Virus record (IMG/VR): IMGVR_UViG_3300013372_001277
Coordinates: 1 to 22,368 of that record
Strand: one strand, 5' to 3'
Length of the DNA stretch: 22,368 nt
DNA from: a virus
The notes under the pieces were generated by a model. It did no database searches. It was not told the DNA's origin and worked only from the letters and a program-made list of their open reading frames with translations. Position numbers and translations under genes: made by a program. How positions within the stretch are numbered: the first letter of the stretch is position 1; every line of letters starts with the position of its first letter. This document shows, in pieces, positions 304 to 20,896 of this stretch.

Positions 304-1728
304 TCAAACTACCGCCAGTTTGCGCCGTAGCGGCTGTGACCACTTGCTGTTATAGCTGGTGCCATACAATGCCGTTCCTGCCTCGCTGGCGAAAGTGAGG
401 GCGACGGCGTCGGCAACGTCGGGAGAACGGCGCGAACGTGCCCGGATCTCGTCCTTCGATTCGATTTTCATCTTGGCGGACCCAGACTGAAACCCGTAGC
501 GCACCAGCGTTAACTCGTCACGCAGGCGCTTGTCTTCAGGAAGCCGACAGTCCCGACGCTCCAACCATGCCTTCATCTTGAACCAAAGCTCGGCTCTCAG
601 GTTGAGGTACGTGGTGCCCATTGCCGGGGACTCGGACACGTTGATGCCTCGGGCCGGAAGCCCCATTTCCCGCAGACGATCACAAGCGCCAGCTCCGAGG
701 CCGATTGAATCGACAAGGATTTCCATTGGGCGCATATCAGAACTGGCGGAGTCCCATTCGGACTTGACGACGGCGGCGGTCTGCATGAGGTCCAACTTTG
801 ACCAGCACCGTGGCGCGTCCGCGATCACGTTTGATTGGCGCTTTACCAGACACGAGGAGTCGTCGCCAAACCGCGCAACGTCCAGTCCCCAGATGATTGG
901 TTCGTTCGGCGAACAGATTACGTCGCGGCCAATGGCCGACTCTACCAGTTCCAGCGGAATGACGGTATCGTCTTCAGCGCGAGGGAACTCGCCAAGCACG
1001 CGGATACGGTAGGCGTTCGAGTCGATGCCGTGCAGCGCCACGATGTCGTCAACAAATTCATGGGACACCCTGGGGGAGTCGAGGCACGAAACGTGCATCC
1101 TGAACCATTTCTTTGCCAGATCAGGGTTCGTGTGCGTCTCGTAGAACATTCCACTGGTGCGAAGCGGGTTGCCCAGCAGAATTGTGACGGCAGAGTGCCC
1201 GGACATGGACCCGTAGGCGGCTTGAAAGACCGATTCGGGGATACCAGACGCCTCGTCAGCGATCAGCATCACGTTGGTGGAGTGGACCCCGGCAAGGGCT
1301 TCCGGCGTTTCAGATCGGCTGGTACGGGCAGAAATAAAGGCTTCATCTACTGCGCCAACCAAAACAACGCGGTCGGACTTTACTTCAAGCATCCCCCGGA
1401 TCAGGGGCGGCAACTTCTCAATCCATGTTTTGATTTCGGCAAACAGAGCATCGAATAATTGGCTGGCGTTTGGGGCGGTAATCACGATCTTGACCGGGAT
1501 GCGCGTCAGAATGTACCAGATTACGGCCCACGAAGACACTGTAGACTTGCCGGTACCGTGGCCGGATCTAACCGTAATACGGCGCTCTCCGCGTGCGACG
1601 GCCATCAAAAACTCGTCCTGCCACTTATCCGGGGTGGCCCCCAAAACCTCACGCACAAACAAGTCGGGGCGGTCGCGATATCGCCCTAAAAACTCAATAA
1701 ACGGGTTTTCTTGCGGTTTATCTGCCAT
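304..1728 (-). CDS. terL: Phage terminase large subunit (TerL)
   Basis: This is the packaging motor: an N-terminal ATPase drives DNA into the procapsid and a C-terminal RNase H-like nuclease cuts the concatemer. In the 474-residue product the Walker A loop is SGHGTGKST (55-63), Walker B is VMLIADEA (153-160, with D158 and E159), and the coupling motif TILLGNP lies at 182-188. Nuclease acidic residues are likely D283 (GLDVARFGDD), D340 (ILVDSIG) and D437/D440 (SPDVADA). The open frame extends 39 codons further upstream to 1845, but that would cross the control region and overlap the portal gene. The ATG at 1728 begins MADKPQENPF and has a GGA-type site upstream, so I chose it. The gene runs opposite to the portal gene, which is unusual. 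No small terminase subunit is recognisable in the window. Confidence 0.95.
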   Translation of the reverse strand: MADKPQENPFIEFLGRYRDRPDLFVREVLGATPDKWQDEFLMAVARGERRITVRSGHGTGKSTVSSWAVIWYILTRIPVKIVITAPNASQLFDALFAEIKTWIEKLPPLIRGMLEVKSDRVVLVGAVDEAFISARTSRSETPEALAGVHSTNVMLIADEASGIPESVFQAAYGSMSGHSAVTILLGNPLRTSGMFYETHTNPDLAKKWFRMHVSCLDSPRVSHEFVDDIVALHGIDSNAYRIRVLGEFPRAEDDTVIPLELVESAIGRDVICSPNEPIIWGLDVARFGDDSSCLVKRQSNVIADAPRCWSKLDLMQTAAVVKSEWDSASSDMRPMEILVDSIGLGAGACDRLREMGLPARGINVSESPAMGTTYLNLRAELWFKMKAWLERRDCRLPEDKRLRDELTLVRYGFQSGSAKMKIESKDEIRARSRRSPDVADAVALTFASEAGTALYGTSYNSKWSQPLRRKLAVV

Positions 1729-1744
1729 GCGTTCCAAGCGTACC

Positions 1745-1782
1745 ACCACTTTCAGGTGGTGTTGACACCACCTCCAAGTGGT
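1745..1782. repeat. 38-bp near-perfect palindrome (candidate operator)
   Basis: The 68-bp gap between the divergent terminase and portal genes holds an inverted repeat with arms ACCACTT-NN-AGGTGGTGT and ACACCACCT-NN-AAGTGGT around a 2-base centre. Only the central pair and one 2-base block per arm break the symmetry. It can be read as four half-sites of an ACCAC-type motif in alternating orientation. It contains the -35 box and the whole spacer of the portal promoter, so a protein bound here should control at least that promoter. There is no T-run after either arm, so a terminator is unlikely. The binding protein is unknown. Confidence 0.8.
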
Positions 1783-1789
1783 GTATAGT
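1762..1789 (+). promoter_or_regulatory. Sigma70-like promoter for the structural operon
   Basis: A consensus -35 box TTGACA (1762-1767) is followed after 16 bases by TATAGT (1784-1789), which matches TATAAT at five of six positions. The expected transcription start, about 7 bases after the -10 box, is at 1796-1797, that is, at the A of the portal ATG. There is no Shine-Dalgarno sequence between the -10 box and the ATG, so the mRNA from this promoter may be leaderless. The -35 box sits in the 38-bp palindrome. Confidence 0.7.
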
Positions 1790-1796
1790 ATGCTCA

Positions 1797-3848
1797 ATGG
1801 CTCAGATGGACATTTCGGAACTCGAAGGGATCGTTTCATCGGCAATCGTTGACGCGGCCAGCTTCATCGACTCCGACGTGTCCCCGCTCAGGGCGAAGGC
1901 AACGCGCTACTACAACGCGGAGTTGTTCGGAGATGAGCGGGCAGGCCGAAGTCAGGTAATTTCGCAGGACGTGCGGGACACCGTTAACGCGATTCTGCCG
2001 TCGCTGCTGCGCATATTCTTTGGATCTGAGCAGGCCGTCCAGTTTGTGCCGAAGTCGGCGGAAGACCTGCCGATAGCAGAACAGGCGACGGATTACGTTC
2101 AGTACGTCATCTCCGAAGATAATCCGGGTTTTCTCACGTTTCACGGCTGGTTCAAGGACGCGCTGATTAACAAGACCGGCATTGTCAAGTATTGGGCCGA
2201 CGACGCCACGCGCATCGAATCCCGCAAGTTTCACTACCTCGACGCGGATCAGGTCATGGGCCTGTTGTCCGAGGAAGGCGTCGAACTTGTTGAATCGGAA
2301 CAAGAAAACGGGATGTTTTCAATTACGGTTCGCAAGAAAACCAGCGACTACCGGCTCAGGGTTGCAAACATACCGCCTGAAGAGTTCCTGATTTCTCGCG
2401 AAGCCAAAACACTGGAAGACGCAACCCTGGTGGCGCATCGCACCGAAAAAACGGTGTCCGACCTGATAGCAATGGGTTACACCGAAGATCAGGTTGCCGA
2501 GGCTGGCATCGGGGACACTACCCTTGAAATGAACGACGAGCGGCTGGCGCGTTCGCCGTGGAATATCACCATCGGGGCCGAAGACTACTCGAACCCGGCG
2601 CAGCGTCGAGTTGCCTATTGCGAGGCGTTCCTCAAAGTTGATTTTGACGGCGATGGCATTGCCGAACTTCGCCACATTTGCACAATGGGAACCTCCCATA
2701 ACGTGGTACACAACGAACCCGCAGAGAGTCGCCCGTTTGCTCTGATCTGCCCGGACCCGGAGCCGCACATGGTTATCGGTAACTCCATTGCGGATCTGGT
2801 GATGGACATCCAGCGGATTAAGTCTCAGGTATGGCGGCTCATGCTTGATTCTCTCGGGCAGGCTATCAACCCGCGAACTGCGGTAGTTGAGAATCAGGTA
2901 AACCTTGACGACGTGATGAACGACGAAACGGGCGGCATTATACGAATGCGTGCTCCCGGCATGGTTCAGCCGTTCAACCAGCCTTTCGTGGGCCAGAACG
3001 CTCTGCCTGTGCTGGCGTTACTGGATGAGACGCGGGAATCCCGCACAGGTATTACAAAGGCTTCGCAAGGGCTAAACGCTGACGTTCTCCAAAGCACGAC
3101 TAAAGCGGCGGTAGCTGCAACGGTCACGGCGGCGCAAGAGCATATTGAAATGATTGCCCGCATCTTTGCGGAAACGGGCATCAAGGATCTTTATCGTGGG
3201 CTGCTGAAGTTAGCTGTACAGTGCCAAGACAAAGAGCGCATCGTTCGCCTGCGTAACAAATTCGTCGCTGTCCAGCCTTCCATGTTCGACCCGATGATGG
3301 ACGTTTCGGTTAACGTCGGGCTGGGCGGTGGAACACGCGAAGACAAGCTGGCCACACTCACCGGCATTGCGGCCAAGCAGGAAGCCATCCTGCAAACGCT
3401 TGGTCCGTCGAATCCCATTTGCACGTTGAGCCAGTATTCGGCAACCCTGCGGAAGATGGCCGAAATGGCCGGATTCAGAGACGCAAGCCAGTTTTTTAAC
3501 GCAGTGCCCGCTGACTACCAGGCCCCAACTCCACAACCCGCTGAAGACCCGCAGGCAAAAACGGCAATGATACTTGCTCAGGTTGAGCAGGAAAAGACGC
3601 GGGCTAGGATTTCAACGGACGCGGGCGAATTAGACCTGAAGCGCGACCAGATGGTGATGGACGATGCGCGGGAGCGTTACAAGATTATGGTTGACAGCCG
3701 GGTCAAACTTGCTGAACTTCAACTGAAATATGGCGCTGACATGATGTCCGTGAACGCCAAAATCGACGCAGACAACTTGCAAATGCAGCAAGACGCGCAG
3801 GCGCAGGTTAATGCCTCTAACCTACCTCAGGAGCAACCCGTCCAGTGA
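1797..3848 (+). CDS. Portal protein (P22-type, head-tail connector)
   Basis: The 683-residue product should form the ring at the unique capsid vertex through which DNA is packaged and ejected. Length is close to that of P22-like portals. The start region (ELEGIVSSAI..., YYNAELFGDERAGRSQVIS, DVRDTVNAILPSLLRIFF) is the typical N-terminal signature of this family. The middle has GDGIAELRHI and PEPHMVIGNSIADLVMDIQ, also characteristic. The last roughly 110 residues are polar and helical (many Q, E, K and D), fitting a C-terminal barrel or crown. The start at 1797 is supported by the promoter just upstream, but there is no ribosome-binding site; a second ATG at 1806 is possible. The stop overlaps the next GTG by 4 bases. 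Confidence 0.9.
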   Translation: MAQMDISELEGIVSSAIVDAASFIDSDVSPLRAKATRYYNAELFGDERAGRSQVISQDVRDTVNAILPSLLRIFFGSEQAVQFVPKSAEDLPIAEQATDYVQYVISEDNPGFLTFHGWFKDALINKTGIVKYWADDATRIESRKFHYLDADQVMGLLSEEGVELVESEQENGMFSITVRKKTSDYRLRVANIPPEEFLISREAKTLEDATLVAHRTEKTVSDLIAMGYTEDQVAEAGIGDTTLEMNDERLARSPWNITIGAEDYSNPAQRRVAYCEAFLKVDFDGDGIAELRHICTMGTSHNVVHNEPAESRPFALICPDPEPHMVIGNSIADLVMDIQRIKSQVWRLMLDSLGQAINPRTAVVENQVNLDDVMNDETGGIIRMRAPGMVQPFNQPFVGQNALPVLALLDETRESRTGITKASQGLNADVLQSTTKAAVAATVTAAQEHIEMIARIFAETGIKDLYRGLLKLAVQCQDKERIVRLRNKFVAVQPSMFDPMMDVSVNVGLGGGTREDKLATLTGIAAKQEAILQTLGPSNPICTLSQYSATLRKMAEMAGFRDASQFFNAVPADYQAPTPQPAEDPQAKTAMILAQVEQEKTRARISTDAGELDLKRDQMVMDDARERYKIMVDSRVKLAELQLKYGADMMSVNAKIDADNLQMQQDAQAQVNASNLPQEQPVQ

Positions 3849-20057: not shown

Positions 20058-20390
20058 TCAAGATCGGGTAATTACCTCAACGCCGTCAATGAACTCCTTC
20101 AGTTGTCCCTCATACCTGAACCATTCATCGCGCAGCCGATAGGACTGGAAAAGGTGGTGAATGGCCTGTTCAAACGGGAACCCGCCTTTGTGCTCAAGGG
20201 CAACTCGGAACGGATACGGGCATCCTTTTTGAATGTCCGCAATTCGACCTCTGGCGTCCTGAAATTTAGTGAAGCCGATCTTAACGTACTCTTCGTTGAC
20301 GATGATGGCGTACACCGTCCCAGGCTGATTGCCAACGAGCATCGCTTTAGCCAAGACACAAGCTGCATTCACTACTGGATCTGAACTCAT
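20058..20390 (-). CDS. T5orf172/MUG113-type GIY-YIG domain protein
   Basis: This 110-residue protein matches the T5orf172 branch of the GIY-YIG nuclease superfamily. TVYAII (25-30) stands for the GIY strand and EYVKIGFTKF (34-43) for the YIG strand. R49 in RGRIADIQKGCPYP is the conserved Arg, E74 in FEQAIHHLF is the likely metal ligand, and DEWF (88-91) is the typical end motif. Stand-alone proteins of this kind are frequent in phages; they are expected to nick or cut DNA, but most are untested. It has a conventional ATG at 20390; an internal Met at 20342 is an alternative. It runs opposite to the late and early operons. No second DNA-binding domain is present, unlike in many homing enzymes. 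Confidence 0.8.
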   Translation of the reverse strand: MSSDPVVNAACVLAKAMLVGNQPGTVYAIIVNEEYVKIGFTKFQDARGRIADIQKGCPYPFRVALEHKGGFPFEQAIHHLFQSYRLRDEWFRYEGQLKEFIDGVEVITRS

Positions 20391-20483: not shown

Positions 20484-20510
20484 CCCCCCGGCTCGTCACC
20501 GGGGGGTTTT
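20484..20510 (+). terminator. Rho-independent terminator (plus strand)
   Basis: An 8-bp GC stem CCCCCCGG / CCGGGGGG with a 7-base loop is followed by TTTT. It points rightward and lies beyond the minus-strand GIY-YIG gene, so late transcripts leaving the lysis cassette would run antisense through that gene before stopping here. On the other strand no T-run follows. Confidence 0.8.
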
Positions 20511-20551
20511 CACGTCCGGGCAACATCTGCCTGCAATTTCCGCAGCGTTGC

Positions 20552-20806
20552 TCATGCTTTTTCCTCTCGCGGCGTCACCCGCTGAAGCATCCCCAGCCTG
20601 AGAGCGTGCCGCAGTCCGCACGCCAGTACGGCGTACACAGACGATCCCTTTGCCCTTGCCAGCACCGCCTGCGCTTGCGTATACGTTATCTCACCCATAG
20701 CCCATGCCACTGCCAAGCCAGCGGTTTCATCTTGTTTTGGCTTGCTGGCGCGAACCTTCTTTGTGACTGACTTTGCCCTAGCTAAGAGGGTTTGAGGTTT
20801 GTTCAT
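20552..20806 (-). CDS. Small basic protein, possible helix-turn-helix-like
   Basis: The 84-residue product has a Lys/Arg-rich N terminus (TLLARAKSVTKKVRASKPKQ) and an Ala-rich helical domain (ETAGLAVAWAMGEITYTQAQ followed by AVLARAKGSS and YAVLACGLRHALRLGML). The GEITYTQAQAVL..YAVLACGLRHA part recalls small phage DNA-binding-like proteins, but this is a weak impression. Start options are the ATG at 20806 (GGGGAG very close upstream), at 20815 (MGSMNK) or a longer form to 20869; I chose 20806. It faces the early plus operon across a shared control region, the usual place for a regulator. The plus-strand terminator lies between it and the GIY-YIG gene. Confidence 0.6.
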   Translation of the reverse strand: MNKPQTLLARAKSVTKKVRASKPKQDETAGLAVAWAMGEITYTQAQAVLARAKGSSVYAVLACGLRHALRLGMLQRVTPREEKA

Positions 20807-20848
20807 ACTCCCCATAGTAAACTGTGACGTAAAAAAAATGCAATATTT

Positions 20849-20858
20849 TGTTGCAACA
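20849..20858. repeat. Palindrome TGTTGCAACA in divergent control region
   Basis: A perfect 10-bp palindrome spans the -35 hexamer TTGCAA of the rightward promoter. Because TTGCAA is its own reverse complement, the same hexamer could serve as -35 box in both directions. It is short, so it may be chance. Confidence 0.45.
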
Positions 20859-20879
20859 GATTCATCCATCCACTATGCT
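20851..20879 (+). promoter_or_regulatory. Sigma70-like promoter for the early operon
   Basis: TTGCAA (20851-20856), a 17-base spacer and TATGCT (20874-20879) fit a sigma70-type promoter. The expected start near 20886 leaves a leader of about 11 bases with an AGGA site before the ATG at 20897. Leftward options are weaker: TTGCAA (20856-20851) with TTTACG, or TTGCAT (20843-20838) with TTTACT (20821-20816). Confidence 0.65.
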
Positions 20880-20896
20880 TGTTTTTAGGACACACC

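Follow-up and report, generated by a model that had tools for sequence, protein, structure and literature searches.

The operators OR and OL, bound by CI and Cro in phage lambda, carry a dyad in several copies, spaced by about two helical turns, over the -35 and -10 elements, an organization suited to cooperative dimers. Another described arrangement is that of the Arc/Mnt-type operators of phage P22, with paired ribbon-helix-helix (RHH) dimers following an 11-bp rhythm. Here we describe a locus in a 22.4-kb virus record, analysed at its full length and hereafter called the window, in which one dyad is likewise repeated about two turns apart over a -35/-10 region (Table 1). In lambda three copies are found between early promoters, whereas in the window two copies precede a structural operon. 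The half-site centres, alternating 12, 10 and 12 bp apart, are near the RHH rhythm as well; however, the half-site sequence differs from that of the P22 operators, and no RHH protein was identified among the phage proteins scanned, which were a subset of the open reading frames (ORFs). Unlike lambda, neither a tyrosine integrase nor an above-threshold CI/Cro-like gene was detected in the records of this phage and its kin. PF00589, the signature of the integrase that a temperate phage of lambda type would carry, had no match in three records, possibly incomplete ones, nor did any CI/Cro-type (HTH_3) repressor exceed the cut-off in three records. Furthermore, the neighbours of the site are the genes of the large terminase subunit (terL) and of the portal protein, and not that of an HTH_3 repressor. 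It is plausible that the double operator is a case of a known kind of switch, rather than a new kind of system.

Table 1. Positions of the features discussed. Plain numbers refer to the window; L078 and L079 together make up the 33.4-kb kin contig G005.
Feature	Position	Strand	Basis or remark
Terminase large subunit gene (terL)	304..1728	-	phrog_2 terminase large subunit, E 1.4e-44
Operator-like dyad 1	1744..1761		CACCAC-TTTCAG-GTGGTG; exact match to CACCACN6GTGGTG; inverted and direct repeats
Predicted sigma-70-type promoter, TTGACA-16-TATAGT	1762..1789	+	consensus match alone; best in the window and kin genomes
Operator-like dyad 2	1766..1783		CACCAC-CTCCAA-GTGGTG; exact match; 22 bp from dyad 1
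Portal protein gene, first of the late operon	1797..3848	+	phrog_1216 portal, E 1.1e-145
84-aa all-helical protein, candidate regulator of the initial annotation	20552..20806	-	no PHROGs match at E 0.001
Predicted replication initiation gene	L078:6370-7098		far from the double dyad
54-aa HTH-like ORF on kin contigs	L078:11949-12113	-	starts (V/M)ISRGRPR; predicted three-helix fold
Small terminase subunit gene (terS)	L079:93-566	+	convergent with terL

The initial annotation had reported at this place a 38-bp inverted repeat, which is real: two arms of 19 nt (1744-1762 and 1765-1783), 2 nt apart, are 89% complementary. The same bases can also be aligned as a direct repeat (1744-1762 and 1766-1784, 84%, spacing 22) and, seen whole, the segment 1744-1783 is more aptly read as two dyads of 18 bp than as one large palindrome, the latter arising because a repeated dyad always yields a bigger palindrome. 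This segment is the top symmetric element of the window, scoring 14 against maxima of 8-13 in 30 simulated windows, and of 600 simulated windows a single one had two identical 6+6 dyads within 45 bp. As in the operators of phage repressors that overlap promoters, the site is dyad-symmetric, repeated and above chance. When the remaining genome was scanned for the half-site, as had been suggested along with the repeat, the double dyad proved to be one of a kind: in five records, one of them near-complete at 33 kb, the core CCACTTNNAAGTGG is not matched again within 2 mismatches, and no further copy of CACCACN6GTGGTG within 1 mismatch was found in the window record. Looser matches to the latter motif (1-2 mismatches) occur at three places in G002 and G005, none of them as tandem pairs.

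The dyads, both on nearly the same helix face, are closely fitted to the predicted promoter, whose hexamers TTGACA (1762-1767) and TATAGT (1784-1789) are separated by a 16 bp spacer and share 11 of their 12 bases with the consensus; no other sigma-70 match reaches 11/12 in the window and two longer kin contigs. Dyad 1 ends immediately 5' of TTGACA, abutting the -35 box, while dyad 2 takes up the spacer and begins with the last two bases of that box. The overlap with a consensus-like promoter, pointed out in the initial annotation, is thereby borne out, and dyad 2 is placed, as expected of an operator, on the -35/-10 region of a promoter recognized by its consensus only. The flanking genes had also been correctly named as divergent terL and portal, as indicated by their PHROGs matches and opposite strands. 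The promoter is directed toward portal, with a transcript start predicted at about 1796. Of the proposed switching of packaging and structural genes, the structural part is sustained by a visible promoter for portal, and for terL none is convincing. The portal ATG at 1797 lies 8 nt past the -10 hexamer and has no Shine-Dalgarno sequence (window 1784-1800), unlike the capsid gene and several others, in which one is present; for both of these reasons the portal message is probably leaderless.

The interpretation that we favour, with a probability of roughly three in five, is that of a double operator which would repress the main promoter for the late genes. Each 18-bp dyad would hold one dimer of a DNA-binding protein, and two dimers placed about two helical turns apart could contact each other and bind cooperatively. 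Occupation of site 2 would cover the -35/-10 spacer and exclude RNA polymerase, and that of site 1 would strengthen the binding. Late in infection, with the repressor below a threshold or titrated by genome copies, the strong promoter would fire; portal, capsid, tail and lysis genes would then be transcribed rightward as one unit, in a probably leaderless message, as far as a presumed terminator near 20487-20516, where a T run accompanies a strong G+C hairpin. We infer here the cooperativity, the extent of the transcript and the preference for repression over activation, the last in view of a promoter that already comes close to the consensus. A protein that activates, or does both, by contacting RNA polymerase from site 1 as lambda CI does and repressing from site 2 at high concentration, seems quite improbable. 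Although the centre of site 1 (1752.5) lies some 44 bp before the expected start, near class II activator positions, an 11/12 promoter should need no activator, and both dyads look equally good.

Five kin contigs span the site, with portal 98-99% identical, and contribute four distinct sequences besides that of the window. Both dyads and the promoter are kept in all five, with at most one arm change each. Variable positions amount to 2 of 24 in the arms and 4 of 12 in the inner segments, a difference that is not significant over five distinct sequences (Fisher p 0.15); the inner changes are all transitions, and at the half-site positions CACCACYY is preserved. Both arm changes are single and uncompensated, and they are found in two of the five distinct sequences. 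When pairs were counted for two local dyads, 95% of the cells were paired with zero double changes, equal to shuffles; for one large hairpin, 87% were paired with one double change, a result reached by 290 of 500 shuffles. The covarying arms anticipated in the initial annotation are therefore not seen in these five near-identical sequences, a shallow sample in which covariation gives no positive support and which is too shallow for refutation. The operator idea fits the anatomy, with site 2 between the -35 and -10 elements and site 1 just upstream.

Uncompensated arm changes in two of the five distinct sequences, together with an element that is not conserved outside close kin, are also what would be expected of chance or of a mutational by-product, for instance a functionless duplication of a short palindrome beside a promoter. 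We find such an origin hardly credible, given the rarity of the element in simulation, its exact position over the best promoter and its persistence in five kin contigs. Equally, one could think of a nucleic-acid structure or DNA-processing site, for example a cruciform or hairpin, an iteron-like element of an origin, or a pac site recognized by the small terminase subunit. Folding of the strand is much stronger than that of its shuffled versions (z -6.25), the distance from the double dyad to terS in the kin contig is about 1.9 kb, and direct repeats of CACCAC type, 22-24 bp in length, form iteron-like arrays elsewhere. This explanation is nevertheless very doubtful, as the changes in the stem are not compensated beyond chance, it would be a coincidence for the element to match the promoter spacer exactly, the replication initiation gene is far off and there are just two copies. 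Returning to the double operator, its anatomy and its retention in close kin are observed, and we infer binding, repression and timing; the element is probably functional.

As for the protein that would bind it, the initial annotation had put forward the 84-aa product encoded at 20552-20806. It has only an insignificant Pfam match and an all-helical AF2 model with a pLDDT of 65, and searches gave no relatives outside kin, no HTH-family match, no PDB match and no fold match; its role as regulator remains a guess, owing to the missing HTH-family match and the low-confidence fold. A reasonable second candidate is the 54-aa ORF of the kin contigs, which has weak sub-threshold HTH matches (the best one to HTH_3, 11.7 bits, E 0.01, on the 33-kb contig) as well as weak homeodomain-like fold matches of its three-helix model, and no convincing PDB sequence match. 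The protein is 98% identical between two kin contigs, the piece of DNA that holds the ORF being about 91% identical, and we see in it some resemblance to the domain with which Hin-type recombinases bind DNA.

Phage repressors usually control their own gene too. In this phage we found no regulator gene that is autoregulated through the same operator, and there is no site at the candidate phage regulators. As a second operator is not seen at any phage regulator gene, a host protein is the main rival for the regulator. The anatomy of the operator would then be unchanged, but a host transcription factor would bind it, and the phage would read in this way the physiological state of the host before virion making. 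The phage genomes examined do contain the operator at a single place, yet an exact scan for the tandem site over 84,980 species genomes returned one match, an iteron-like array in a Clostridia contig, and we hold the intervention of a host factor to be possible, though unlikely.

Outside kin, the tandem dyad was recovered only as iteron-like or G+C-rich repeats, both in exact scans of IMG/VR and GTDB and in similarity searches of phages and plasmids. The 72-bp region had no DNA match in phage or plasmid collections, an Rfam search of the element gave nothing, and no directly matching paper was found in the literature. Iteron-like direct repeats of 22-24 bp with ACCAC/GTGGT arms were observed in unrelated contigs (L085:4500-4600, L148:1780-1850 and L149:3418-3470); these were discarded as further operators, being iteron-like direct or G+C-rich repeats. 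A scan for TTGACACCACN6GTGGTGTA, for its part, matched 61 viral contigs, an enrichment that proved to be an artefact, since nearly all non-kin matches code for the conserved peptide LDTTEKWC. The sole promoter-like contigs among the non-kin matches, L090 and L147, could be due to chance.

The window and G005 combined suggest the following layout of the genome. G005 overlaps the window as a permuted map with 86-98% identity, the structural genes being at about 97.7%, and provides most of the missing remainder. The rightward structural unit, from portal to the G+C hairpin mentioned above, is followed by the minus-strand 84-aa gene and then by a rightward replication and recombination unit, which encodes a RecT-like protein, a replication initiation protein and a DnaB-like helicase. 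Beyond it lie leftward small genes and the plus-strand terS. Between the 84-aa gene and the replication unit, the divergent intergenic region 20807-20893 contains a 10-bp perfect palindrome, TGTTGCAACA, and is a possible second control region. On the other side of the 84-aa gene, a minus-strand ORF of the window (20058-20390) shows a weak endonuclease-like match (phrog_17889, E 3.3e-05); it could be a mobile insertion, because G005 has a different minus-strand ORF (L078:1242-1493) there. At the start of the leftward genes, near L078:16231, a dyad GACAC-CTCCAAA-GTGTC (plus strand) is kept in a second contig. It was rejected as a second operator, because the Shine-Dalgarno sequence of the first leftward gene falls inside it and its half-site differs.

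Relatives in the same portal/terminase family include Sinorhizobium phage phiM5, Manatee Spring MW202879 and about 50 IMG/VR contigs. Their portal proteins are 40-50% identical to that of the window, and for TerL the identity reaches 60%. They share the head gene set of the window where annotated. Unlike the window, however, they carry terL and portal in the same orientation, in most cases separated by 0.4-4 kb, a disposition seen also in MW202879, a close annotated relative, and they have neither a strong promoter nor a double dyad before portal. The some 50 relatives (40-55% identity) thus have both genes on one strand and lack the double dyad, so that terL is reversed in the clade of the window, and no conservation of the element was detected among them beyond the kin that are about 99% identical. 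The earlier remark that control between terL and portal is unusual agrees with the relatives examined and, within the data at hand, the divergent arrangement and the operator are specific to this clade.

In a more far-reaching and rather speculative scenario, terL would have been flipped by a local rearrangement, leaving the virion operon behind a new strong promoter and a double operator. The structural genes would then be timed by direct repression through a regulator of undescribed kind (or a host factor), instead of a late activator or antiterminator, and the portal message would be leaderless.

From a practical standpoint, the site offers a defined 40-bp bait for fishing a DNA-binding protein from uncultured phages. 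Should the double operator act as proposed, it would constitute a compact case, open to testing, in which direct repression of a single strong promoter sets the timing of late phage genes. Moreover, it would mean that late control was rewired by the inversion of a gene, in a family in which the remaining members have another layout.
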